Below, one piece after another: positions 6,070-19,483 of a DNA stretch of 64,000 bases. The notes under the pieces were generated by a model that was not told where the DNA came from, made no database searches, and saw only the letters and a list, made by a program, of their open reading frames with translations. A program made the position numbers and the translations under genes. Location of the stretch: positions 1-64,000 of the forward strand of contig NZ_JAKOPM010000005.1 of assembly GCF_022288805.1 (NCBI RefSeq), read 5' to 3'. The first letter of the stretch is position 1, and every line of letters begins with the position of its first letter. The stretch comes from Corynebacterium yonathiae. Its GTDB lineage: Bacteria; Actinomycetota; Actinomycetes; Mycobacteriales; Mycobacteriaceae.

Positions 6070-7258
6070 CGTTGCCTCCAATTCCATCGAAGGGATCCTT
6101 GATAGCGGTCATTCCACCGCGGCTAGCGGCCCATGCGAAGGATTCGCGCAGGGCCGGGCGCCATACTTGAAAGGAGTGTCCACCGGGTCGGGTGCCAAAG
6201 TAGGTTTTCATGCCGGCGGTGCGGGCGGCATCGGAAAGCGAGCGCAAAGCATTGACCGAAGCAGTGTCTTTATCACCAGCGATGAAGATGGCCTGGGTAG
6301 AGAAGTGCTTGTGGGCGAGCAAGTGGGCGGGGTCCTGGTCATTGAAGGCGGATTCGTCCCCGGCGAAGAATTTCTTCACCGTTGCCGCGTGGTTGCCAAT
6401 GGTGGGCTCAGCCTCGCCGGAAATGTCGATGATGGAACCATAGGCTTCGGGTCGGTTGGTGGCGATCTGTAGGGAGCAGGTGCCGCCGTAGCTTAATCCG
6501 CCCACAGTCCAGGTGCGCTGATCCGGGTTGACTTTGAATTTTTGCTTAATGGCTTGTGGCACGTCCTGGCTGAGGTAGGTCATTACCTTGGCCTGGGAGC
6601 TATCGGCACAAATGGGGTTGGCGGTTTCAGAGCCGGTGGCGTCCACGGCTATGACGATGGGGCTGCGGCCCCCGTTAGCCGCCTGGAATTGGTCTGCAGT
6701 TTCGGCCGCCTCGCCCGAACCGAACCACTGATCCGGGCCGCCCGGGTTGCCGTGCAGGAGCACGATGACAGGCAGGGTGTGGTTCGTCCAGTATGCCGGC
6801 GGAATATACGCCGTTGCTTGCCGAGCGGCGAAATGGGAGGTGGTGCCGGGAAGATTCACATGGACGATGGCTGCACCAGACTTGGTGTGGGAAAATTCTT
6901 CGTAGCTCATTTCCTTCGCCACAGGGCGCGGGTCAAGGGACGCAATATCGGGATAGGTTTGGTATTCCATGTTGACGATGCCGACCGTGGCCAAAAGGGA
7001 AAAGATTCCGGCGGTGACCGTGACAATTTTAGGTTTGCGTACCAGCGCTGCCACGGGGACGAAGGCGGCGAAGAAGATGTACCACGGTACTTGCCAATGA
7101 CGCAGCAAGAACCAGGCAATAATGCACAACAGGGCGGCGATGACCAGCGGCCACACCTTGCGCTGGAGGAGAATAATGATGCCCGCAATCGCGAGGATGG
7201 CGTAGAAGATCACGCCATTGATGGGATCCGCCAAAGGCAGATTCAACAGGAAACTCAC
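6056..7258 (-). CDS. Membrane-anchored alpha/beta-hydrolase esterase (mycolyltransferase-like fold)
   Basis: The 400-residue protein starts with four predicted transmembrane helices (about 14-31, 36-52, 58-73, 78-95), followed by a secreted hydrolase domain. Nucleophile Ser256 sits in GGLSYGG, the acid is probably Asp329 in IFIAGDKD, and the His is His361 in RPGGHSF; LLHGNPGG near 168-174 supplies the oxyanion loop. The fold class is that of esterase D/antigen 85-like enzymes. The GTG start at 7258 is the first of the frame. Its end overlaps the aminoacyl-lipid synthase gene by 14 bp, which suggests hydrolysis or remodelling of aminoacylated lipids. That role is inferred from neighbourhood only. 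Confidence 0.85.
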   Translation of the reverse strand: MSFLLNLPLADPINGVIFYAILAIAGIIILLQRKVWPLVIAALLCIIAWFLLRHWQVPWYIFFAAFVPVAALVRKPKIVTVTAGIFSLLATVGIVNMEYQTYPDIASLDPRPVAKEMSYEEFSHTKSGAAIVHVNLPGTTSHFAARQATAYIPPAYWTNHTLPVIVLLHGNPGGPDQWFGSGEAAETADQFQAANGGRSPIVIAVDATGSETANPICADSSQAKVMTYLSQDVPQAIKQKFKVNPDQRTWTVGGLSYGGTCSLQIATNRPEAYGSIIDISGEAEPTIGNHAATVKKFFAGDESAFNDQDPAHLLAHKHFSTQAIFIAGDKDTASVNALRSLSDAARTAGMKTYFGTRPGGHSFQVWRPALRESFAWAASRGGMTAIKDPFDGIGGNDVRS

Positions 7259-9543: not shown

Positions 9544-11160
9544 ATGGCTCACGCGCGCGCCGGCATGCTTGCACAACCATCGGACCTCATTGACATCGCA
9601 GAATTGGTCACCGCCTACTACACCCGCATCCCGGATGCGGATAACCCTGACCAGCAGGTCTCCTTTGGCACCTCCGGGCATCGCGGCTCCGCACTCGACT
9701 GCGCTTTTAATGAGTCGCATATCCTGGCGATTACCCAAGCCATTGTGGACTACCGTGCAGAGCAGGGTGTTACCGGGGCGATTTTCATCGGCCGCGATAC
9801 CCACGCGCTTTCCGAGCCCGCCATGGTCTCCGCCCTCGAGGTGCTGCTGGCCAATGAGCTAGAGGTTCGCGTCGATGACCGCGGCCGCTATACCCCGACC
9901 CCGGCGGTATCCCACGCGATTTTGACCAATCCCGGTACCGACGGCATTGTGATTACCCCTTCGCATAACCCTCCGCGCGATGGTGGCTTCAAGTACAACC
10001 CGCCAACCGGCGGCCCGGCCGATGCGCAGGCAACCGATTGGATTGCAGGGCGCGCCAACGACTACTTGCGCGCCGGGCTGGAGGGGGTCAAGCGGACCTC
10101 GGTTCACGGCGTGCTGGATGAGCGCTGCGTGAAGCACAACTACGTACGCGATTATGTTGCTGACCTAAAGAACGTGGTGGATATGCAGGCTATTAAGGAC
10201 TCCGGCCTGCGCATCGGTGCCGACCCCATGGGTGGTGCCTCGGTGGACTACTGGCAGGCCATTGCGGATCACTACGGGCTGAATATGACCGTGGTCAACC
10301 CTGATGTGGACTCCACCTTCCGCTTTATGACCTTGGATACGGACGGCAAGATCCGCATGGATTGTTCCTCGCCGGATGCCATGGCCTCGCTTATCGACGC
10401 CCGCTCAAGCTTCGACCTTGCCACCGGCAACGACGCCGATGCGGATCGCCATGGCATTGTCACGCCCGATGCGGGCCTGGTGAACCCCAATCATTATCTT
10501 GCCGTGGCTATTGAGTATCTCTTCAGCCACCGGCCGCAGTGGGGGAATGCCGGTGTGGGTAAGACTTTGGTGTCCTCCTCCATGATTGACCGCGTGGTGG
10601 ACAGCCTAGGGCGCGAGCTGGTGGAGGTTCCCGTCGGCTTCAAGTGGTTTGTGCAGGGGTTGGTTGAAGGCACCATTGGTTTTGGTGGCGAAGAATCGGC
10701 CGGTGCTTCCTTCCTGCGATTCGATGGCTCCGTGTGGTCCACCGATAAGGATGGCATCATCATGGATCTGCTTGCGGCAGAGATTACCGCGGTAACGGGC
10801 AAGACACCGTCTCAGCGCTATGCCGAGCTGGCGGATAAATTCGGCGCTCCAGCCTATGCCCGTACCGACGCCCCAGCCAACCGCGAGCAAAAAGCCATCC
10901 TGAAGAAGCTATCTCCCGAGAAAGTCAGCGCTACGGAGCTGGCAGGGGAGGAGATCGTGGCCAAGCTAACTGAGGCGCCCGGCAACGGTGCTGCCATCGG
11001 CGGCTTGAAGGTGGCGACAAAGAATGCGTGGTTTGCTGCCCGCCCTTCTGGTACGGAAGACAAATACAAAATCTATGCGGAGTCTTTCCTGGGTGAGGAA
11101 CATCTCAGACAGGTACAAGCAGAAGCACAGGCAGTTGTCACCCATGTGTTAGAGGGTTAA
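9544..11160 (+). CDS. pgm: Phosphoglucomutase (alpha-D-glucose phosphate-specific)
   Basis: The 538-residue enzyme interconverts glucose 1-phosphate and glucose 6-phosphate in the cytoplasm, linking glycogen/trehalose and cell-wall sugar synthesis to glycolysis. All four alpha-phosphohexomutase motifs are present: catalytic phosphoserine Ser140 in [12 protein letters not shown], metal loop [10 protein letters not shown] near 298-307, sugar-binding GGEESAG near 380, and phosphate-binding [12 protein letters not shown] near 500. The N-terminal FGTSGHRG is also typical. Length fits the roughly 545-residue bacterial Pgm. AAGGAG lies seven bases before the ATG. Confidence 0.95.
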
Positions 11161-12503: not shown

Positions 12504-12576
12504 GGGGCTATGGCGCAGCTGGTAGCGCACCACACTGGCAGTGTGGGGGTCACGGGTTCGAATCCCGTTAGCTCCA
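12504..12576 (+). tRNA. tRNA-Ala (anticodon GGC), integration target
   Basis: The cloverleaf folds: acceptor GGGGCTA/TAGCTCC, D-arm GCGC..GCGC, anticodon stem CCACA/TGTGG with loop CTGGCAG (anticodon GGC), and T-arm ACGGG TTCGAAT CCCGT. CCA is not fully encoded. The last 22 bases are part of a 26-bp direct repeat found again at 19458-19483, so this is the attachment site of the downstream element. The integration rebuilt an intact tRNA 3' end. Confidence 0.97.
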
Positions 12577-12580
12577 CAAA
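12555..12580. repeat. attL core (26-bp direct repeat, copy 1)
   Basis: This covers the T-loop/3' acceptor part of tRNA-Ala plus four flanking bases. It is identical to 19458-19483. Confidence 0.93.
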
Positions 12581-12588
12581 TTGCATTT

Positions 12589-12618
12589 CCCCTAGTCGTT
12601 AGTGACTAGGGGTTTTGT
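12589..12618 (+). terminator. Element-borne terminator behind tRNA-Ala
   Basis: CCCCTAGTC (12589-12597) pairs with GACTAGGGG (12604-12612), followed by TTTTGTTG. It lies just inside the left end of the element. The host's own terminator seems to have been displaced to 19487-19517, so the element brings a replacement. Confidence 0.8.
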
Positions 12619-12749
12619 TGTGTCTGTGCAGGTCATCGCCCGTCTAGTATCTTGCCATAGGTTGCCATAAGATGGCACTAAATGAACTCTGAACGGGAAA
12701 ATAACGGGAATACTTTCCCGCTTCCCGGCCCTATCCCTGGAGCACATTC

Positions 12750-14000
12750 ATGGCACGTAAGAAAGCTGGGCGCAGCTCATTCGGGCGCGTCCGCCAAAAA
12801 GGCAAACGATGGTATGCGGAATATACCGGCCCTGATGCCGCCATTCACACCCCCGGCCACTCATTCGCCAATAAGATTGATGCGGATGGTTGGATAGCCG
12901 CAGAGCGCCGCCTAATCGACTTAGACGCGTGGGAGCCGCCTAAGGCGCGCCGGGCTAAAGAGGAGGCTTCAGGCGAAACGGTGGGGCAGTGGTTAGACCG
13001 CTTCCATGATCTGTTAGAGCAGCGGCCTACCCCGCTTAAGCCGTCCACTATGCAGCTTTATCGCCGTCTGGCTCGCGTGCGTATCACAGAGCCTTCTGGC
13101 CCTGGAGCTGAAGATAAAGATGTTTGCAGTCTGCGGGATATCCCATTAGCGAAGCTGACTAAGGCGGATGTGTACCGCTGGTGGGATGGTGTACAGCGGT
13201 GTTATCCCAGTGCTCATACGCTTAATCAACAGGCGTATAAGCGCCTCAAAGCAGCGTGTGCTGGGGCGGTTGAACGGGAAATGATTGACGCTAACCCCGT
13301 GGATATTAAGGAAGCCGGGAAACGTGTTGAGACCAACGAAAAGTACCTGCCTACGGATGCGGAAATAGCCGCCATCTTGGAGCACGTCCCCGACCGTTAT
13401 CGCGCTTTAACGTCACTTATGTTGCATCATGGTCTGCGTATTGGTGAAGCTATCGCCCTGGAGCGCGACGATGTACGGATAGAGCACCAGCCTGGCGCGG
13501 CTCTTCCTTGTGTGACTGTGCGAATAAAGCAGAATGCGCAGCGTATTTCAGGCAATGACGGTACCTACATGATGGTGCAGCCGCCTAAGACTAGGGCGGG
13601 TTATCGGGAGGTGCCGATTATGGCGGCGGATGTGCCTATTTTTCTGGAGCACTTGGAAAAGTATGTGCCTGGAGTTCCCACAGTCTTACGCACTACGGAA
13701 GGTGTGCGCAGTGCCGTGCTTTTAACCACTACCTCGAGCGGGAAGATGGTGATGGATACCAGCTATCGCAGTGTGCTCGCACGGGCGAAGAAAGCGGCTG
13801 GTGTGAGTCCTGATATTGATCCGCATACGGGGCGTAATTGGTTGATTACCCGGCTGGCGGAGCAGGGTGCGCATTTGAAGGAGATTGGTCGCCTGTTGGG
13901 GCAGGATGATGTGACCACGATTCTTAATGTGTATTTGAAGGTGAGGGCGGAGCGCACGACCTCGTTGATGGAGAAGGTCAGTAGGACTTTGGAGGATTGA
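12750..14000 (+). CDS. int: Tyrosine-recombinase integrase
   Basis: A 416-residue site-specific recombinase. There is an N-terminal AP2-like arm-binding region (about 8-70, FGRVRQKGKRWYAEYTGP), a SAM-like core-binding domain (about 75-185), and a catalytic domain from about 200. Catalytic residues: Arg in HHGLRIGEAIAL (about 230), HxxR in PHTGRNWLITR (about 352-355), and nucleophile Tyr in ILNVYLKV (about 396). The third conserved position, usually LLGH, reads LLGQDD, an unusual Gln for His. It lies next to attL and reads inward, as is usual for tRNA-targeting elements. It would insert and, with the excisionase-like protein, remove the island. Confidence 0.95.
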   Translation: MARKKAGRSSFGRVRQKGKRWYAEYTGPDAAIHTPGHSFANKIDADGWIAAERRLIDLDAWEPPKARRAKEEASGETVGQWLDRFHDLLEQRPTPLKPSTMQLYRRLARVRITEPSGPGAEDKDVCSLRDIPLAKLTKADVYRWWDGVQRCYPSAHTLNQQAYKRLKAACAGAVEREMIDANPVDIKEAGKRVETNEKYLPTDAEIAAILEHVPDRYRALTSLMLHHGLRIGEAIALERDDVRIEHQPGAALPCVTVRIKQNAQRISGNDGTYMMVQPPKTRAGYREVPIMAADVPIFLEHLEKYVPGVPTVLRTTEGVRSAVLLTTTSSGKMVMDTSYRSVLARAKKAAGVSPDIDPHTGRNWLITRLAEQGAHLKEIGRLLGQDDVTTILNVYLKVRAERTTSLMEKVSRTLED

Positions 14001-14034
14001 GGGATGACTTTGGGGACTTTAGTTTCTCGGTTGT

Positions 14035-14075
14035 GGTGAGTTATCCACAGGGGTTTGGGGTGAGTTATCCACAGG
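14035..14075 (+). repeat. Two DnaA boxes (TTATCCACA) in 24-bp direct repeats
   Basis: TTATCCACA at 14041-14049 and 14065-14073 match the consensus DnaA box exactly. They are embedded in identical 17-base units spaced 24 bp apart, about two helical turns, on the same strand. Binding by host DnaA could initiate replication or control expression of the element. Confidence 0.75.
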
Positions 14076-14399
14076 TTTAGGACTGTCAAATTTTTGTGAA
14101 GAATTAGACAGAAACGAACATTTGTGACCGGGGATACGCATACCTAATGTTGCGACCTGGGGTTTTGTGTGCGGGGAGTGTTCCGGCGGGGGCGGATTGT
14201 TAGGTTTCCCTTTTGTCGGTATTAGCTTTGTCCCATTGGGGCCTTTTGTGTCCGGGATAGTCCTGCGGTGGGTAAGTTACAATGATGTAGTTCCAACAAT
14301 CGTTGGGATGCCCCACCACTGGTGGACCTGGAAGAAAACCAGCGGCGGGGCCGACCATTTGACTGTGTTTATTCGCACCGCGATGGGCACGGAATAACC

Positions 14400-14417
14400 A
14401 CCGTCATGTGTGACGGT
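14400..14417. promoter_or_regulatory. Inverted repeat upstream of excisionase-like gene
   Basis: ACCGTCA/TGACGGT, a 7-bp perfect inverted repeat with a 4-base loop, lies 18 bases before the start codon and close to the AGAAAGG ribosome site. It could be an operator or a translational hairpin. There is no T-run, so it is unlikely to be a terminator. Confidence 0.45.
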
Positions 14418-14435
14418 AGAAAGGATGGCTAAGAA

Positions 14436-14705
14436 ATGCCATTCCAGCCAACCCCGGGTACTACCCCCGTGGACCCTCACTGCACTCAGCACGACGCTTC
14501 CCGCCCTGTCATTCCGGCAGGAGCAAAAGCACTCACACTGGAGCAGTCCGCAGAACGATGGCAGGTAAGCATTCGCACTCTGCGCCGTCGCATTGCTGAA
14601 GGGCGATTGACTGCCTACCGCCACGGACGTGCCATCCGCCTAAAGCCTGAAGATGTAGACGCACTGTTCACCCCAACCAATAAGTGGAACGGGGGCGCAG
14701 CCTAA
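14436..14705 (+). CDS. Excisionase/AlpA-like helix-turn-helix DNA-binding protein
   Basis: An 89-residue protein whose C-terminal 55 residues are a MerR-like winged helix of the excisionase class: ALTLEQSAERWQVSIRTLRRRIAEGRLTAYRHGRAIRLKPEDVDALF. Such proteins bend DNA for excision or act as transcriptional switches in phages, plasmids and satellites. It has an AGAAAGG ribosome site, and a hairpin (14400-14417) sits just upstream. The stop TAA overlaps the next ATG (TAATG). Xis versus regulator (AlpA) cannot be decided from sequence. Confidence 0.85.
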   Translation: MPFQPTPGTTPVDPHCTQHDASRPVIPAGAKALTLEQSAERWQVSIRTLRRRIAEGRLTAYRHGRAIRLKPEDVDALFTPTNKWNGGAA

Positions 14706-15019
14706 TGAACGTCACCGTCGAAGATCGTCTCATCTATATCCGCGAGTTGACCAAGAGCCTCACTGATTGTGCGATGGATGCCCTGGCTGGTGCTGAAGTG
14801 GAAGAAAGTGTCTGTGAAGAAATAGGAGAGATCCTTTACGCACTTTCTGAAGATGTTGATGGTGAGGTATCAGCCAGTGGTCTTTCCCGTCGGCAGTTCT
14901 ACTCGCACGGTATGCCCGTCTATGAGCGAAAAGAAGGCGGATGGTGGCTAAACCATCCAGAACGCGGCCACAGTACAGGCCGGGATTCTTTTGAAGAAGT
15001 CGATGGAGGTGAGTGGTAA
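14705..15019 (+). CDS. Hypothetical acidic protein of the element
   Basis: A 104-residue acidic protein, not recognised. Residues 1-60 are probably helical (EDRLIYIRELTKSLTDCAMDALAGAEVEESVCEEIGEIL). The C-terminal part is rich in Gly/Trp and charged residues (YERKEGGWWLNHPERG). It starts at an ATG overlapping the stop of the excisionase-like gene (TAATG) and ends directly before the next ATG, so it is firmly in the replication operon. Its role is unknown; an accessory regulator is possible. Confidence 0.7.
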   Translation: MNVTVEDRLIYIRELTKSLTDCAMDALAGAEVEESVCEEIGEILYALSEDVDGEVSASGLSRRQFYSHGMPVYERKEGGWWLNHPERGHSTGRDSFEEVDGGEW

Positions 15020-15604
15020 ATGACCACCCCAACAAAAGAAAACCCCCGCCCGGCGGCGGAAGCCGAGAAGGGGAGGGTGGACGACCATGCTGGTGCGGTA
15101 TCCGATGCTAACTCTAGCACCGCGCTACACAGCCCGGCAACGGAATTAACCCTGCTTAGTGGCCTGTTAGCCGCCCGCGCCGGGCAAGTACTTGAAGTAG
15201 CGCAACAGCTGGATGCCCGTGATTTCTACGCGCCCCAGCACGCCACCATTTACGCCGCTGTAATCACCGCTGCACGCCGCCTAAACAAGGATGGGCAACC
15301 AGATGCACCACTACAGCCAGAGCTAATACAGCGTGACCTACAGGCTGCTGGGAAACTATTCGACACCGTTGCCACCGCCCTACTACAGGCCACCAGTGCA
15401 AAGCACCTGCCGCCGGTAATACAAGACGTATACAGGCTCGCTGAAGCCCTACGCCGTGCCCGCCTGCACCGCGCCTTAGATACCGCCGGCCATGACCTTA
15501 TAGAGGCCGCTAATCGTGGAGCAGACGACGACATACGCCGCTGCATCAGCAACCTGGCATACCTTCCCGAATTATCCCGGCGCGCCGGGCTGGAGGTGGC
15601 ATAA
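15020..15604 (+). CDS. Stand-alone DnaB N-terminal-domain protein
   Basis: A 194-residue protein. Residues about 35-115 (ATELTLLSGLLAARAG, then ARDFYAPQHATIYAAVITAARRL, then LIQRDLQAAGKL) match the N-terminal primase-interacting domain of replicative helicase DnaB. The protein stops before any RecA-type ATPase domain: no Walker A is present. The C-terminal 60 residues are helical and Arg-rich (YRLAEALRRARLHRALDTAGHDLIEAANRG), similar to the DnaB linker region. It may recruit host primase or helicase to the element's origin, or may interfere with host DnaB. The ATPase 200 bases downstream could supply the motor. Function is inferred. Confidence 0.75.
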   Translation: MTTPTKENPRPAAEAEKGRVDDHAGAVSDANSSTALHSPATELTLLSGLLAARAGQVLEVAQQLDARDFYAPQHATIYAAVITAARRLNKDGQPDAPLQPELIQRDLQAAGKLFDTVATALLQATSAKHLPPVIQDVYRLAEALRRARLHRALDTAGHDLIEAANRGADDDIRRCISNLAYLPELSRRAGLEVA

Positions 15605-15606
15605 CA

Positions 15607-15801
15607 GTGGAAATTGCCAAGGTGGAAACTGATCGTCGTGCTGCGCAGATTCAGGCCGCGCTGGAGAAGAAGAAACAGTGGGAGAAAAGACGGGATGCCG
15701 AATTAAGGTTGCCGCCTCTGGCTAGTGGATACCGAGACCCGGACGGGTGGCAAACCGACGCGCCGGACCGCTGGTATTTCGTCGCTGGAGGTGATGAGTA
15801 A
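15607..15801 (+). CDS. Small hypothetical protein of the element
   Basis: A 64-residue protein, not recognised. Its N-terminal half is a charged helix (EIAKVETDRRAAQIQAALEKKKQWEKRRDAEL) and its C-terminal half is rich in Trp, Pro and Asp. It starts at GTG two bases after the previous stop and its TAA overlaps the ATG of the ATPase (TAATG), which supports translation as part of the operon. Confidence 0.6.
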   Translation: MEIAKVETDRRAAQIQAALEKKKQWEKRRDAELRLPPLASGYRDPDGWQTDAPDRWYFVAGGDE

Positions 15802-17120
15802 TGACGGCCTTTAATGCGAGCGCCTACAGCGTAGAACAGTGGCGCGAACTAGAGCAGCAAGTGTTCGATAATGGCTCCGCCGCCCTGACAGCAGTACGAG
15901 ACTACGCCCGGCATAACAACCTACCCCCAGTGCCGTTTCTCGTAGCCTGCGCCCAATACGCCATCGCAGCAACACCGAGCAGCGTCATGCTGGATGCTGG
16001 TTTAGGCCCTGGCACCGCGAACATGTTCGTCTGCCTTATGGACGCACCAGGCATGGGAAAAGACCGCCTGATGAAGTACGTACGCCGCGCTATGCAGGTG
16101 TCGTGCAACGGTAGGCCCCTGGAGCCAGTACCCGCTTCCGTAAGTTCTGGTGAAGGTGTAATCACCTCCATGATTGAACACGACGAAAAGGGAAACCCCA
16201 TTGTGGAAGATGGCGCAGCAATGCCCGGCGCGCCTGTACTGTTTGGCGTCTCGGAAGTTGGTCTGCTGGGCAACCTGATGAAGCGGCAGGGCAACACGCT
16301 TAGGCAGAACTTGCTGTCTGTCTACAGTGGTAACCCATTGGGGATTAATAACCGGCAAGACAAAATGTATTTGGCGCAGGATTCCTACCGTGGTTGCCTG
16401 TGGGTAGGTGCCCAGCCTGATACCGCCGGCATTTTGTTGGAAGGCGGCGATGATGGGCTACGGCATCGTTTCGTATTCGTGGAGCTAGAAGATCCATTGC
16501 TGGACATTGATCATGATTACCCGGAAGCGCAGCTGCTGCCCGTGGAGATTCCTAAGCGATTGGTGGATGGTAAGCCGTTTACCTTCCCTCGTGAAGTCTG
16601 CCAGTACTCCCAATTGATGCTGAAGCAAAAGTTAAAGCATGGTGCAGCGGTCGCGCCGGTAGGTCATGCTGATTTCACCACCGCCAAGCTGGCTATGGGC
16701 ATTGCCCTACTGCGCAGCCAGAGTAGCGCCAGCCAGCATGACTATGACAGTGCTAAGGCGATTATGGGCTATTCCGCTGCTGTTATCGCCCGCTGTGAGC
16801 GTCACCAGAGCGATAAGCGGATTGAGGATAGGGCGGCGCGTCGGGGTGAAGATGAGCAGGCGGCAGAGCTGGCGGCAGAGCGGAGGATGAAGCGGAAGGA
16901 AGAAAAGCGGCAACGCCTTATCCAAAAGATTGTTTCGTGGGTGGATGTGGAGGATGGTTGTACTCCAGAGCCTGAAACGTGGCAGCAGTTTAGGCAGACG
17001 CTTAACAGTCGTGACCGTTCCGATGCTGATTCCATTTGTGGGCAGATGATCCATGATGGGGTTCTGCGCAGGGATGGTGACTACGTAGAGCGCGGCCCGG
17101 CCTTCCAAAATGTTGTGTAA
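15801..17120 (+). CDS. AAA+-like replication ATPase (DUF3987-like helicase/primase-associated)
   Basis: A 439-residue protein. Residues about 20-290 form an ATPase core: P-loop MDAPGMGKDRL near 77-87 (GK followed by Asp instead of Ser/Thr), a Walker-B-like LFGVSEVGLL near 152, a sensor-like WVGAQPDTAG near 205, and an arginine-finger-like GLRHRFVFVEL near 220. A charged coiled coil lies at about 335-375 (RGEDEQAAELAAERRMKRKEEKRQR), and a winged-helix tail at about 376-435. The pattern resembles DUF3987-type helicase proteins of phages and islands. It lies directly upstream of the TGTCCTA array, which the winged helix may bind. This would be the element's replication initiator or helicase; that role is inferred. 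Confidence 0.72.
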   Translation: MTAFNASAYSVEQWRELEQQVFDNGSAALTAVRDYARHNNLPPVPFLVACAQYAIAATPSSVMLDAGLGPGTANMFVCLMDAPGMGKDRLMKYVRRAMQVSCNGRPLEPVPASVSSGEGVITSMIEHDEKGNPIVEDGAAMPGAPVLFGVSEVGLLGNLMKRQGNTLRQNLLSVYSGNPLGINNRQDKMYLAQDSYRGCLWVGAQPDTAGILLEGGDDGLRHRFVFVELEDPLLDIDHDYPEAQLLPVEIPKRLVDGKPFTFPREVCQYSQLMLKQKLKHGAAVAPVGHADFTTAKLAMGIALLRSQSSASQHDYDSAKAIMGYSAAVIARCERHQSDKRIEDRAARRGEDEQAAELAAERRMKRKEEKRQRLIQKIVSWVDVEDGCTPEPETWQQFRQTLNSRDRSDADSICGQMIHDGVLRRDGDYVERGPAFQNVV

Positions 17121-17472
17121 GTAGACCTGTCCTAGCGTCCTAACTGTCCTATGCAGGTCACACGGTGTTTTTGCCTGTCCTTTCGGGATGTCCTGACTGT
17201 CCTATCTGTCCTATCTTCACCTGGTGTTAGGACACTTAGGACACCCAATAGGACACCTTTAGGACACCCAAAAATAGGCCCTGACCTGCATAGGACTCAT
17301 AGGACACCTATTTTGTGTTTCTACACTTTCAATCCTATTTCCAAAGCAGTCACGTCTGGTAGAAGCTTTAGCCATCGTCTGCTTTTCTCCCCGGGACTCT
17401 TCTAAACCCGAGAACTGGTTCTCACCTTTCTTTCCTCGGCTTCCCTGCCTCCTTGTTGGTCTTGTTGAGTCG
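17121..17472. other. Non-coding candidate replication origin region
   Basis: The 350 bases after the ATPase gene hold the inverted array of TGTCCTA repeats (17128-17306). They are followed by a more T/A-rich stretch (about 17306-17345). No convincing gene is present; the reading frames crossing it lack start signals and coding character. Confidence 0.6.
17128..17306. repeat. Iteron-like array: 7 TGTCCT units facing 6 TAGGAC units
   Basis: On the plus strand TGTCCTA or one-base variants begin at 17128, 17136, 17145, 17176, 17189, 17198 and 17207. The reverse complement TAGGACA, or a one-base variant, begins at 17228, 17237, 17249, 17260, 17291 and 17300. The two halves form a large inverted repeat centred near 17218. 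The outer arms include a perfect 15-bp pair, GTCCTATGCAGGTCA (17146-17160) and its complement (17282-17296). Such clustered short repeats next to a replication gene are typical of iteron origins of plasmids and satellites. Confidence 0.85.
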
Positions 17473-17763
17473 GTGGATACCAGGGTGGCGGAGAACGCTA
17501 AACGCTTATGGCTAGGGGAAACACCAGAATCCAGGGGGAAAGCAGGGAGGCCGGAAAATAATTGTGGTGGCACCACAATAAAACCCCCGGCAATGAACAG
17601 TGGAGCCGACGGAATCCTCGCCCGTCTGAAGCGTGACCACCCCGACCTAGCTCAACAGGTGGTTGACGGGGGCATGAGTGCTACCAAAGCAGCACGGGCA
17701 GTGGGAGCGCGGATCGTTAGGTCGGGGTCCCGACTTAAAGAGCGAGCTATTTACAATTTGTAA
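17473..17763 (+). CDS. Small hypothetical protein with a phage/plasmid-type HTH-like segment
   Basis: A 96-residue frame starting at GTG. Two segments recall proteins of actinobacterial phages and plasmids: TRVAENAKRLWLGET near residues 3-17, and ILARLKRDHPDLAQQVVDGG followed by MSATKAARAVGAR near 48-80, where a short helix-turn-helix-like unit is expected. It has no good ribosome site, and the open frame extends upstream to 17263 without coding character. It is therefore probably the 3' part of a once longer gene. Moderate doubt whether it is expressed. Confidence 0.5.
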   Translation: MDTRVAENAKRLWLGETPESRGKAGRPENNCGGTTIKPPAMNSGADGILARLKRDHPDLAQQVVDGGMSATKAARAVGARIVRSGSRLKERAIYNL

Positions 17764-18187
17764 AAAGCGATAAGTCTGGGATGCTCACAGTCCTGAAGTT
17801 GTGCCCCGCGTTAGCGCGTCAATGGTCATTGGAAACGGGGCGCGCTGAGTGGAGTTAGTCCCGAATTCGGGATTAAGGGAAGTTGTACAGGTGGATTCGC
17901 AGCACTCATGCTGGAAGATCTTCCGACTTGGAAACTTCCCCATCTAAAGAGCAACCAGCACAACGGAACGTAAAAGAGTCGATAGTGATTCACTCAATGC
18001 TTCACACAAAGAAATAAAAATGCTCACTAAACAACATGTGACCACCATCACCTAGGGGTGGGGGGGTACCTCCCCCTCATGGGCAAGGTCTATCCTCCCG
18101 GTATATGGACAGAGCTGGTTAGTAACAGTTTTCTATAGGGCTATTGGTTTTATTACTTGGTTGTTTGCAATGGTTGGTGTGTACCCA
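17764..18187. other. Structured non-coding stretch of the element
   Basis: 424 bases without a gene but with several dyads: GCCCCG/CGGGGC (17803-17808 and 17836-17841), a 14-bp perfect palindrome TCCCGAATTCGGGA (17859-17872), and GGGAAGTT/AACTTCCC (17877-17884 and 17933-17940) enclosing a 12-bp palindrome GGAAGATCTTCC (17913-17924). A G-run/C-run hairpin-like stretch lies near 18055-18075. Candidates are a regulatory RNA, a packaging signal or part of the origin. Confidence 0.5.
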
Positions 18188-18550
18188 TTAATTGTGTGAC
18201 TTTAATCTGCCGTGTGTAGTTCGAGACTGGGGTTGTCGTTCCACAGGTTCACGGCGTGGCTGAAGCGAAGGCTGCTCACGACCGAGGGAATCCGTCCGCT
18301 TTTCGACGCTCGGAATTTCCGAGCGCTGCTGCATCTCCTGACGCACGGAATTCACTGTCTTATCACTTGTACCCGTACGCTTAGCGTGTTCAACATTGCT
18401 GAGAGTCGGGTCTGCTTTGAGTGATTCTGCAATCAAAGCGCGGCGTTGCTCCCGATTAAGGTGACGGCGTTTCTTCTGGGGGCATGGAGTGAAAATTTCG
18501 GTCCAGGTAACAGGCGGAGTTTCTTTGGCGATTAATTGACTAAATAGCGG
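18188..18550 (-). pseudogene. Truncated phage/plasmid-type replication or partition protein remnant
   Basis: The minus-strand frame is open from 18550 to a TAA at 18188-18190. It encodes a recognisable mobile-element segment: WTEIFTPCPQKKRRHLNR, EQRRALIAESLKADPTLSN, then an HTH-like unit TGTSDKTVNSVRQEMQQ and EKRTDSLGREQP. Proteins with this order in actinobacterial phages and plasmids are longer. Here no ATG, GTG or TTG precedes the conserved part, and an in-frame TAG (complement of 18551-18553) closes the frame upstream. A TTG at 18436 would start inside the domain. I read it as a 5'-truncated remnant; the parent family's function is not certain. Confidence 0.6.
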
Positions 18551-18600
18551 CTACTTGCTTAGTGCTCGGCGTCGTTAAACTCCCTCCTGAAAGGAAAATC

Positions 18601-18900
18601 ATGTCTAGGTTTAAGAAGTCTGTGGCTGCTGTGGCTGTTGCTGCAGCGATTGGTGGCGGCTCCCCGGCTGTAGCATCCGCAGCCCCAGTTGTGCCGTCAT
18701 TGTCGAGCACTACCCCCGAGCAGCGGAGCCAAATTCGCGATGCGCTCTACAATGCCCATGAACTGCTGGAGCCGTACGTCCCTGCTCAGTACAAGTACGG
18801 TTTTAACCAACTCTACGGTTTCCTGTGGGGCACCTTCGCCCCGGCGTCAGATTTGGATGCGGAGTACGCCCGCATGAAGGACTCTCTGGTCAAAGACTAA
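18601..18900 (+). CDS. Small secreted protein of the element
   Basis: A 99-residue protein with a Sec signal peptide: positive N-terminus MSRFKKS, hydrophobic core AVAAVAVAAAIGGG, and a cleavage motif near ASA-AP at about residue 29-30. The mature part of about 70 residues is mostly helical (TTPEQRSQIRDALYNAHEL and then LDAEYARMKDSL) with an aromatic middle (YKYGFNQLYGFLWGTF), and no cysteines. AAAGGA sits about seven bases before the ATG. It is not recognised. As it lies in the cargo end of the element, it may be a host-modifying or surface protein. A terminator follows at 18928-18958. Confidence 0.78.
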   Translation: MSRFKKSVAAVAVAAAIGGGSPAVASAAPVVPSLSSTTPEQRSQIRDALYNAHELLEPYVPAQYKYGFNQLYGFLWGTFAPASDLDAEYARMKDSLVKD

Positions 18901-18927
18901 GGCGCGTAACCAGACACAAAAAAAGGG

Positions 18928-18958
18928 GGCCACTCGGTATAAATCGGGTGGCCTATCT
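18928..18958 (+). terminator. Terminator after the secreted-protein gene
   Basis: GGCCACTCG (18928-18936) pairs with CGGGTGGCC (18945-18953) with one G-U pair, followed by TATCTTT. A second hairpin, GGGTTCAGGA/TCCTGAACCC at about 19084-19113, lies ahead of the next small gene. Confidence 0.65.
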
Positions 18959-19155
18959 TTGTATGTGGCGGCGTTTTGCCTGTTCAATATCGCCGTTTAA
19001 GGCGTTTTATTTTCCCGCTGGGGTGGTAGTACCCCTCAATCGCTTAGGCGACCATATAGCGCGCTACAAAAAGTAGCCACCAGGGGTTCAGGAAGCCTCA
19101 ATCATCCTGAACCCTGGGGCGTCTGAGTATCATACCCACTTTGGAAGGAATCATC

Positions 19156-19302
19156 ATGGAAAAGACTATGACTTATGCGTTTGCAGCCGCTTTCGCCGCG
19201 TTCATTGCGGTATCCACAGTGATACCTAATTGGCTCCTAATTGCCCCCGTGGCACTCGCTATCTCTGAGGCTGCATTGTCTTACCGCAGGAGCCGTAAGT
19301 GA
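19156..19302 (+). CDS. Small membrane peptide (48 residues)
   Basis: A short frame with a good ribosome site (GGAAGGAATCATC before ATG) encodes a 48-residue peptide. Two hydrophobic segments fill residues 5-21 (MTYAFAAAFAAFIAVST) and 26-40 (LLIAPVALAISEAA), ending in a basic tail SYRRSRK. It is the last gene of the element before attR. Not recognised. Size, topology and position resemble holin-like or immunity-type membrane peptides, but nothing in the sequence decides this. Confidence 0.55.
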   Translation: MEKTMTYAFAAAFAAFIAVSTVIPNWLLIAPVALAISEAALSYRRSRK

Positions 19303-19457
19303 TCCTTGCCGGCATCGGCAAAGGCATGGGGCGCGAATTGTGATTGTGTGTTTGGGGGTGGTTGCCGGTCTTATCGGATAGAAACGGGAAAATTACGGGA
19401 ATTTCTTCCCGTAGTAGTTTTAGAAAGTGGCAATTACCTGCGCTGATGTGGTGTCGA

Positions 19458-19483
19458 GGTTCGAATCCCGTTAGCTCCACAAA
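19458..19483. repeat. attR core (26-bp direct repeat, copy 2)
   Basis: Identical to 12555-12580. The bases just upstream (GTGTCGA) no longer match tRNA-Ala, so only the 3' end of the tRNA is duplicated here and no second functional tRNA exists. Confidence 0.93.

Follow-up and report, generated by a model that had tools for sequence, protein, structure and literature searches.

A tRNA-Ala island of Corynebacterium yonathiae with a predicted replication module and probable phage-satellite ancestry

Phage-inducible chromosomal minimalist islands (PICMIs) are proven phage satellites, which a helper phage packages as concatemers; their model (PMC10803314) comprises an integrase, AlpA (PF05930 or PF12728), DUF3987 (PF13148) or DUF5906 and fis, and is devoid of packaging genes. 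In the Staphylococcus aureus pathogenicity islands (SaPIs), the Rep protein reads iterons positioned directly downstream of its own gene via its C-terminal domain (PMC7581432). Candidate phage-inducible chromosomal islands (PICIs) with capsids and helicases have already been reported in Mycobacterium (PMC10654092), and the experimental proof of actinobacterial phage satellites is described as lagging behind (PMC10023795). Here we report on a 64-kb stretch of a Corynebacterium yonathiae contig (the window, to which coordinates refer unless another locus is named) and on an insertion located at positions 12555-19483 (the window island), which is, on balance, probably a minimal island of phage-satellite descent that can excise and initiate its own replication.

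Among the described systems, the PICMIs offer the closest known plan (PMC10803314). They share with the window island a size of about 6 kb, a PF00589 integrase, an HTH_17/AlpA protein, the lack of recognised packaging genes and a variable cargo; the replication protein of PICMIs is of the DUF3987 type, to which that of the window island may be related. Matches to the integrase and AlpA families were found in the window island (Table 1), and integration adjacent to fis was not: PICMIs occupy the fis locus of Vibrionaceae and their helper is proven, whereas the window island is inserted at tRNA-Ala in a Corynebacterium. Furthermore, its helicase carries no fused primase and is accompanied by a protein corresponding to the N-terminal domain of DnaB (DnaB-N). 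The layout of SaPIs and other Gram-positive PICIs, a Rep helicase with a directly downstream iteron origin (PMC7581432), is matched by the window island, in which the helicase is predicted to bind the iterons; the window island differs from these elements in that it possesses no recognised repressor, packaging or capsid-redirecting gene, and in combining a helicase probably of the DUF3987 group with DnaB-N in place of an archaeo-eukaryotic primase. Tyrosine integrases at tRNA genes and replication helicases recur in the Mycobacterium candidate PICIs, including phiRv1/phiRv2, whose hosts belong to the same bacterial order; these are defined, however, by an integrase plus a capsid gene (PMC10654092), and the window island lacks the latter. 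The Cch2 module of the staphylococcal cassette chromosome mec (SCCmec) likewise features an initiator helicase, a separate priming partner and downstream repeats bound by the C-terminal domain of the helicase, but its helicase is paired with an A-family polymerase plus MP, and DnaB-N is absent (PMC7581432). The window island looks functional and would operate much as a PICMI equipped with a SaPI-type origin, and is a member of neither group.

An insertion of 6.9 kb bounded by a perfect 26-bp repeat of tRNA-Ala (GGC) had been put forward in the original prediction, and was borne out by the repeat search and by an empty site in the same species. Genome G239 of this species, in which the helicase profile finds no match, holds one 26-bp copy at the corresponding locus (L126), and the left 3,313 bp and right 1,713 bp of its alignment with the window are 100% identical. 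Since the two flanks overlap by exactly 26 bp, the insertion (6,903 bp, start to start) is precise, and it is polymorphic within the species. The predicted integrase and excisionase-like protein were substantiated by their family matches, and, as anticipated, no structural, terminase or relaxase genes were recognised among the ten open reading frames (ORFs) scanned. The same scan returned no FtsK-type translocase or relaxase family, by which actinomycete integrative and conjugative elements (AICEs) or integrative and mobilizable elements (IMEs) are recognised, and no repressor family (repressor-like genes are present in L044 and L045). It yielded no convincing match to a packaging or capsid-redirecting module either, a function that an unfamiliar protein could perform without being detected. 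Own capsid, portal and terminase genes, the hallmark of capsid-forming PICIs, were not recognised among the ORFs of the window island.

The identity of what had been called an AAA+-like ATPase is corrected here to an MCM-like AAA+ helicase, corresponding to the helicase half of primase/polymerases. The PF13148 (DUF3987) profile gives no match on the window helicase, for which a PHROG primase/polymerase match was found; PF13148 matches the relatives P0021, P0022 and P0029, and L004. A dN/dS ratio of 0.16-0.17 in comparison with L003 indicates purifying selection. SaPI Rep was not among the 50 matches listed by VIA-align, a result that is uninformative either way. When 40 helicase loci are placed in a midpoint-rooted tree, 15 of the 20 loci from Corynebacterium group together in a single clade (support 0.98) that includes the capsid-bearing L045; L051, L055, L057, L059 and L060 fall elsewhere.

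Syntenic relatives of the window island are present in Corynebacterium. The helicase profile, built from 22 sequences (the window and 21 of 29 homologs), matches 22 of 242 Corynebacterium genomes, the own genome and three near-duplicate pairs (G155/G188, G088/G137, G083/G236) included; a DnaB-N profile was built from the window and 13 of 28 homologs. Genes were clustered for 18 loci, the window among them, with G188 (a copy of G155), G148 and G093 left out and G069 also absent. Seventeen of these loci contain an integrase, which lies on the opposite strand in L044 and L045, and 15 contain an HTH_17 protein. Candidate flanking repeats delimit 12 of the 18 loci, window included, and yield islands of about 5.4 kb (L056, at tRNA-Lys) to 10.8 kb (L051); some of these repeats measure just 15-17 bp and are therefore less certain. 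The search for attachment-site (att) repeats, which covered the loci other than L003, found none in L004, L045, L048, L055 and L057. The usual content is an integrase, an HTH_17 excisionase, a priming partner and the helicase, and both the target tRNA and the cargo end vary from island to island. Of the conserved synteny at tRNA-Ala that had been envisaged, the synteny holds and the tRNA-Ala does not, and the notion of a family built around a stand-alone DnaB-N fails, as other islands hold a PrimPol in the DnaB-N slot; the family is restricted neither to tRNA-Ala nor to DnaB-N. As judged from the sequences, the core of the family is the integrase, the HTH_17 protein, the MCM-like helicase and the downstream iteron dyad. 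Across the order, the helicase profile matches 30 of 397 genomes and 14 of 85 genera, and 20 of the 28 loci from other genera were taken for comparison. No description of this Corynebacterium family was found in open-licence papers; the satellite idea as such is not new in this order, because the Mycobacterium candidate PICIs had been reported before (PMC10654092).

The sequence directly 3' of the helicase stop codon contains an array of iterons that switch midway from forward to reverse orientation, and this array, rather than the DnaA boxes, is likely the origin of replication. In the window island, TGTCCT occurs six times forward and five times in reverse, whereas no 6-mer exceeds four copies in 108 background windows and 100 shuffles; the iteron-like array of the original prediction stands. 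In the main set of 17 Corynebacterium loci (L057, whose sequence ends early, was left out), the dyad exceeds every background window of its own locus in 15, with L051 and L053 as the exceptions, and it beats 100 of 100 shuffles in all 17. L059 and L060 also exceed their own background. The commonest iteron word differs between islands (GTCCTA, GTCCCC, GTACTA, GTCCAC, GGTCCA, TATCCC, TGTCGC, TGCCAC), and the layout is constant. Loci from other genera have shorter arrays or none: three of 20 loci (L105, L108, L112) exceed all background windows and eight of 20 beat all 100 shuffles. The DnaA boxes are present as predicted, with two perfect copies, and are not kept in relatives; an exact box in the gap between the integrase and HTH genes is found only in the window among the 18 loci, and DnaA boxes were rejected as the main origin. 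Pairs of boxes with one mismatch occupy this gap in L047 and L048.

The slot just upstream of the helicase holds DnaB-N in nine of the 18 Corynebacterium loci, a separate PrimPol in three (L004, L052, L054) and an unassigned protein in six (L044, L046, L049, L050, L051, L055); in the 20 other loci, the corresponding numbers are four for DnaB-N, three for a separate PrimPol, three for a fused PrimPol and ten unassigned. The DnaB-N assignments of L047 and L048 are weak and come from an iterated profile (E ~3e-4), in which the E-values of the profile's own members arise by construction; hhalign gave no match for the priming-slot proteins of L044, L047 and L049. The stand-alone DnaB N-terminal-domain protein itself is confirmed in the window island by its PF00772 match. 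Its nearest solved structure is 2r5u, the N-terminal domain of the Mycobacterium tuberculosis DnaB, to which the similarity is weak both for the sequence profile (E 0.019) and for the fold (Foldseek E 0.05, probability 0.99, from a poor model with a pLDDT of 65), and both agree with PF00772. Because the N-terminal domain of DnaB is a docking platform for DnaG, we infer that DnaB-N may replace PrimPol by bringing in the host DnaG primase. The same genetic data would fit a decoy role, in which DnaB-N holds back the DnaB of the host or of a phage during island replication, as a free copy of this dimerising collar domain could disturb the DnaB hexamer; we consider this improbable, since DnaB-N occupies the place of PrimPol beside the helicase, which fits priming better. 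Contig C12 of the own genome (L131, 28001-40003) gives two PF00772 matches, which fall in short open frames 222 and 253 aa long (the ORF 9777-10397 is one of the two), and free DnaB-N proteins are therefore not confined to these islands; the two frames adjoin a ParA-like gene, and this 40-kb contig also carries a 1,519-aa relaxase-like ORF, both identified by eye.

Both ends of the island carry a tandem pair of repeats of about 10 bp, whose word is specific to each island and whose right copy starts 75-85 bp before the right core. Such pairs were detected in six of the 11 bounded islands tested (the window, L049, L050, L052, L056 and L058, with L049 and L050 being near-identical), and not in L044, L046, L047, L051 and L054; in their sequence, they look like the arm sites of integrases. 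A second word, TGCAGGTCA, is concentrated at att ends and putative origins: exact copies in the 12 bounded islands number seven in the origins (five islands), five within 130 bp of the cores (four islands) and two in the rest, corresponding to densities per kb of 2.5, 1.6 at the att ends and 0.022, respectively, as counted once these data had already drawn attention to the word. In the whole window it occurs three times, always inside the island (once close to the left att and once in each origin half). The 8-mer GCAGGTCA is enriched less in 22 further loci (the 20 from outside Corynebacterium plus L059 and L060), with three copies in 5.5 kb of origin regions, three in 1.8 kb of att ends (seven bounded loci) and 37 in 417 kb elsewhere, and TGCAGGTCA is absent from the two corynephages whose integrases are related. 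This placement would make sense if a single protein took part in both excision and replication. Two further copies (at 6130 and 7995) lie on contig C5 of the own genome (L132:1905-9601), where a second integrase and HTH_17 pair ends at a tRNA-Leu together with a DnaB-like gene; this region may share the factor that reads TGCAGGTCA.

The precise insertion, the conserved gene set, the origin layout, the arm-like repeats and the purifying selection on the helicase can be read from the DNA itself; from these, the excision, replication, DnaG priming and packaging of the island are inferred as follows. The integrase and the HTH_17 protein would excise the island between the 26-bp repeats via element-specific arm sites. 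The MCM-like helicase would then recognise the iterons that follow its gene, with the winged-helix-like tail as the probable DNA-binding part, melt the origin and load itself. DnaB-N would stand in for the PrimPol of the sister islands and dock host DnaG, and host enzymes would finish replication. Copies would probably spread in phage particles, as those of PICMIs do; phage transfer is our best guess, and the island a presumed satellite.

Descent from phage satellites is supported by helicase relatives, most of them elsewhere in Mycobacteriales, whose neighbours include genes for a capsid, a terminase or a tape measure, as found in scans of selected ORFs, so that further virion genes are possible. 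A capsid gene adjoins the helicase in L045 (Corynebacterium) and L115, and L098, L099, L107 and L110 hold one between candidate repeats at a tRNA, which in L098 measure only 18 bp. L102 possesses terminase, portal and capsid genes and L101 a terminase gene, with no repeats found in either; in L106, a tape measure and a tail chaperone were recognised beside the helicase relative (four ORFs scanned). L106:4220-18458 represents a 14.2-kb tRNA-Lys island with a 39-bp repeat, an integrase, a PrimPol and the helicase, and in L114 a tape measure follows the helicase; it would be unusual for a satellite to supply the ruler for tail length itself. The 10.35-kb IMG/VR contig L014 (1-10350) carries a distant helicase together with terminase, portal and capsid genes and, by eye, an integrase and a repressor; it looks like a capsid-forming PICI and has no terminal repeat.

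Several observations weigh against a satellite ancestry and the mechanism envisioned above. The virion-gene-bearing relatives L101, L106, L107 and L114 display no clear iteron dyad; therefore, common descent is shown for the helicase lineage and not for the replicon as a whole, which weakens the satellite reading and strengthens a plasmid-like one. The iteron word correlates weakly with the helicase tail (rho 0.20, one-sided Mantel p 0.045, 15 loci), in one of six overlapping segments and without correction. In L059 and L060, which encode larger fused proteins, no integrase or HTH_17 match was found nearby. No function can be assigned to the right third of the window island, and no packaging gene was recognised in its ten ORFs. 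Screened with four Pfam families (PF05065, PF03354, PF03237 and PF04860), the own genome gave no match and revealed neither a helper nor a resident phage; the search against phage DNA returned nothing beyond one 32-bp match (E 0.6), and scans of IMG/VR one distant helicase relative, no DnaB-N or integrase relative and no close copy.

With neither packaging gene, helper nor close IMG/VR copy at hand, the data would also fit a plasmid-like integrative island that uses the same excision and replication module and spreads by conjugation in trans on a resident plasmid, transformation or general transduction, independently of a dedicated helper. The PF00772 matches of contig C12 near the ParA-like gene and the relaxase-like ORF speak in its favour. 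The island, however, has no relaxase or FtsK-type family among the ten ORFs scanned, a BLAST comparison with contig C12, the sole one related to an origin of transfer, gives just a 16-bp match (E 0.056), and several helicase relatives adjoin phage head, packaging or tail genes, in neighbourhoods scanned for virion genes; we regard such an island as a serious but rather unlikely alternative. A decayed prophage or deletion remnant, which finds some support in the annotation of the two best integrase DNA matches among plasmid records as whole phages, in the distant (~25%) helicase relatives in Gordonia and Mycobacterium phages and in possible gene fragments in the right third, is very improbable given the compact layout repeated in many species at different tRNAs, the conserved origin layout, the arm-like repeats, the purifying selection and the lack of a helicase match (E limit 1e-5) in these two phage records. 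The latter are circular (L077, L078), one being phiCmus45274 (42.8 kb) and the other measuring 48.3 kb. Two contigs of genome G118 match this integrase stretch, a pattern compatible with one integrated copy and one circular copy.

Returning to phage-satellite descent, a bolder version can be offered tentatively: these islands might be undescribed capsid-less Corynebacterium satellites that combine a self-loading MCM-like initiator with a free, PrimPol-interchangeable DnaB-N capturing the host primase, and excision might be coupled to replication by a single conserved factor that recognises TGCAGGTCA at the two att arms as well as at the origin. Searches that depend on capsid genes would miss such islands. 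The family is small enough for gene-by-gene dissection, the exchange of DnaB-N and PrimPol makes the primer supply of a satellite directly testable, and the occurrence of the helicase lineage with and without virion genes could reveal how satellites gain or lose them.

Table 1. Features of the window island
Feature	Coordinates	Strand	Basis
tRNA-Ala (GGC), integration target	12504..12577	+	ARAGORN
att repeat, left copy, 26 bp, tRNA 3' end	12555..12580	+	perfect repeat; single copy in the L126 empty site
TGCAGGTCA near left att	12627..12635	+	9-mer count over the 64-kb window
arm-like pair, left (AACGGGAA x2)	12692..12713	+	repeat search
tyrosine integrase, 416 aa	12750..14000	+	PF00589 54.9 bits; phrog_1 9.5e-44
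two perfect DnaA boxes (TTATCCACA at 14041, 14065)	14037..14074	+	not conserved in relatives
excisionase / AlpA-like HTH_17 protein, 89 aa	14436..14705	+	PF12728 35.3 bits; TIGR01764 36.4 bits
p3, small protein, shorter start picked by eye	14705..15019	+	ORF; nine homologs; similar stretches in L054, L056
stand-alone DnaB N-terminal domain protein, 194 aa; putative adaptor to host DnaG primase	15020..15604	+	PF00772 29.6 bits
p5, 64 aa	15607..15801	+	ORF; tblastn similarity in L003, L056
MCM-like AAA+ helicase, C-terminal winged-helix-like tail; putative initiator	15801..17120	+	PHROG primase/polymerase match; dN/dS 0.16-0.17 against L003
putative replication origin: GTCCTA iteron dyad, TGCAGGTCA at 17152 (+), inverse at 17282	17128..17307	.	
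p7, 96-aa ORF, possibly gene debris	17473..17763	+	no family above cut-off
82-aa HTH-like ORF, possibly a fragment	18188..18436	-	phrog_17439 E 0.0022
small protein, signal-peptide-like start (by eye), cargo candidate	18562..18900	+	no family above cut-off
53-aa membrane-like peptide (by eye), cargo candidate	19141..19302	+	no family above cut-off
arm-like pair, right copy, 75 bp before right att repeat	19383..19404	+	
att repeat, right copy, 26 bp	19458..19483	+	perfect repeat

With respect to the cargo, PADLOC recognised no defence family in seven ORFs of the window island. The cargo of L053 (11719-14577) consists of a full-length MmeI-like type IIG restriction-modification enzyme, likely an anti-phage gene. 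A gene with no function known (cluster 10), not found in the window island, is common to five islands (L004, L052, L054, L055, L058), and in L052, L054 and L058 it begins 2-47 bp past the integrase, as the iolg/icg genes of PICMIs do.

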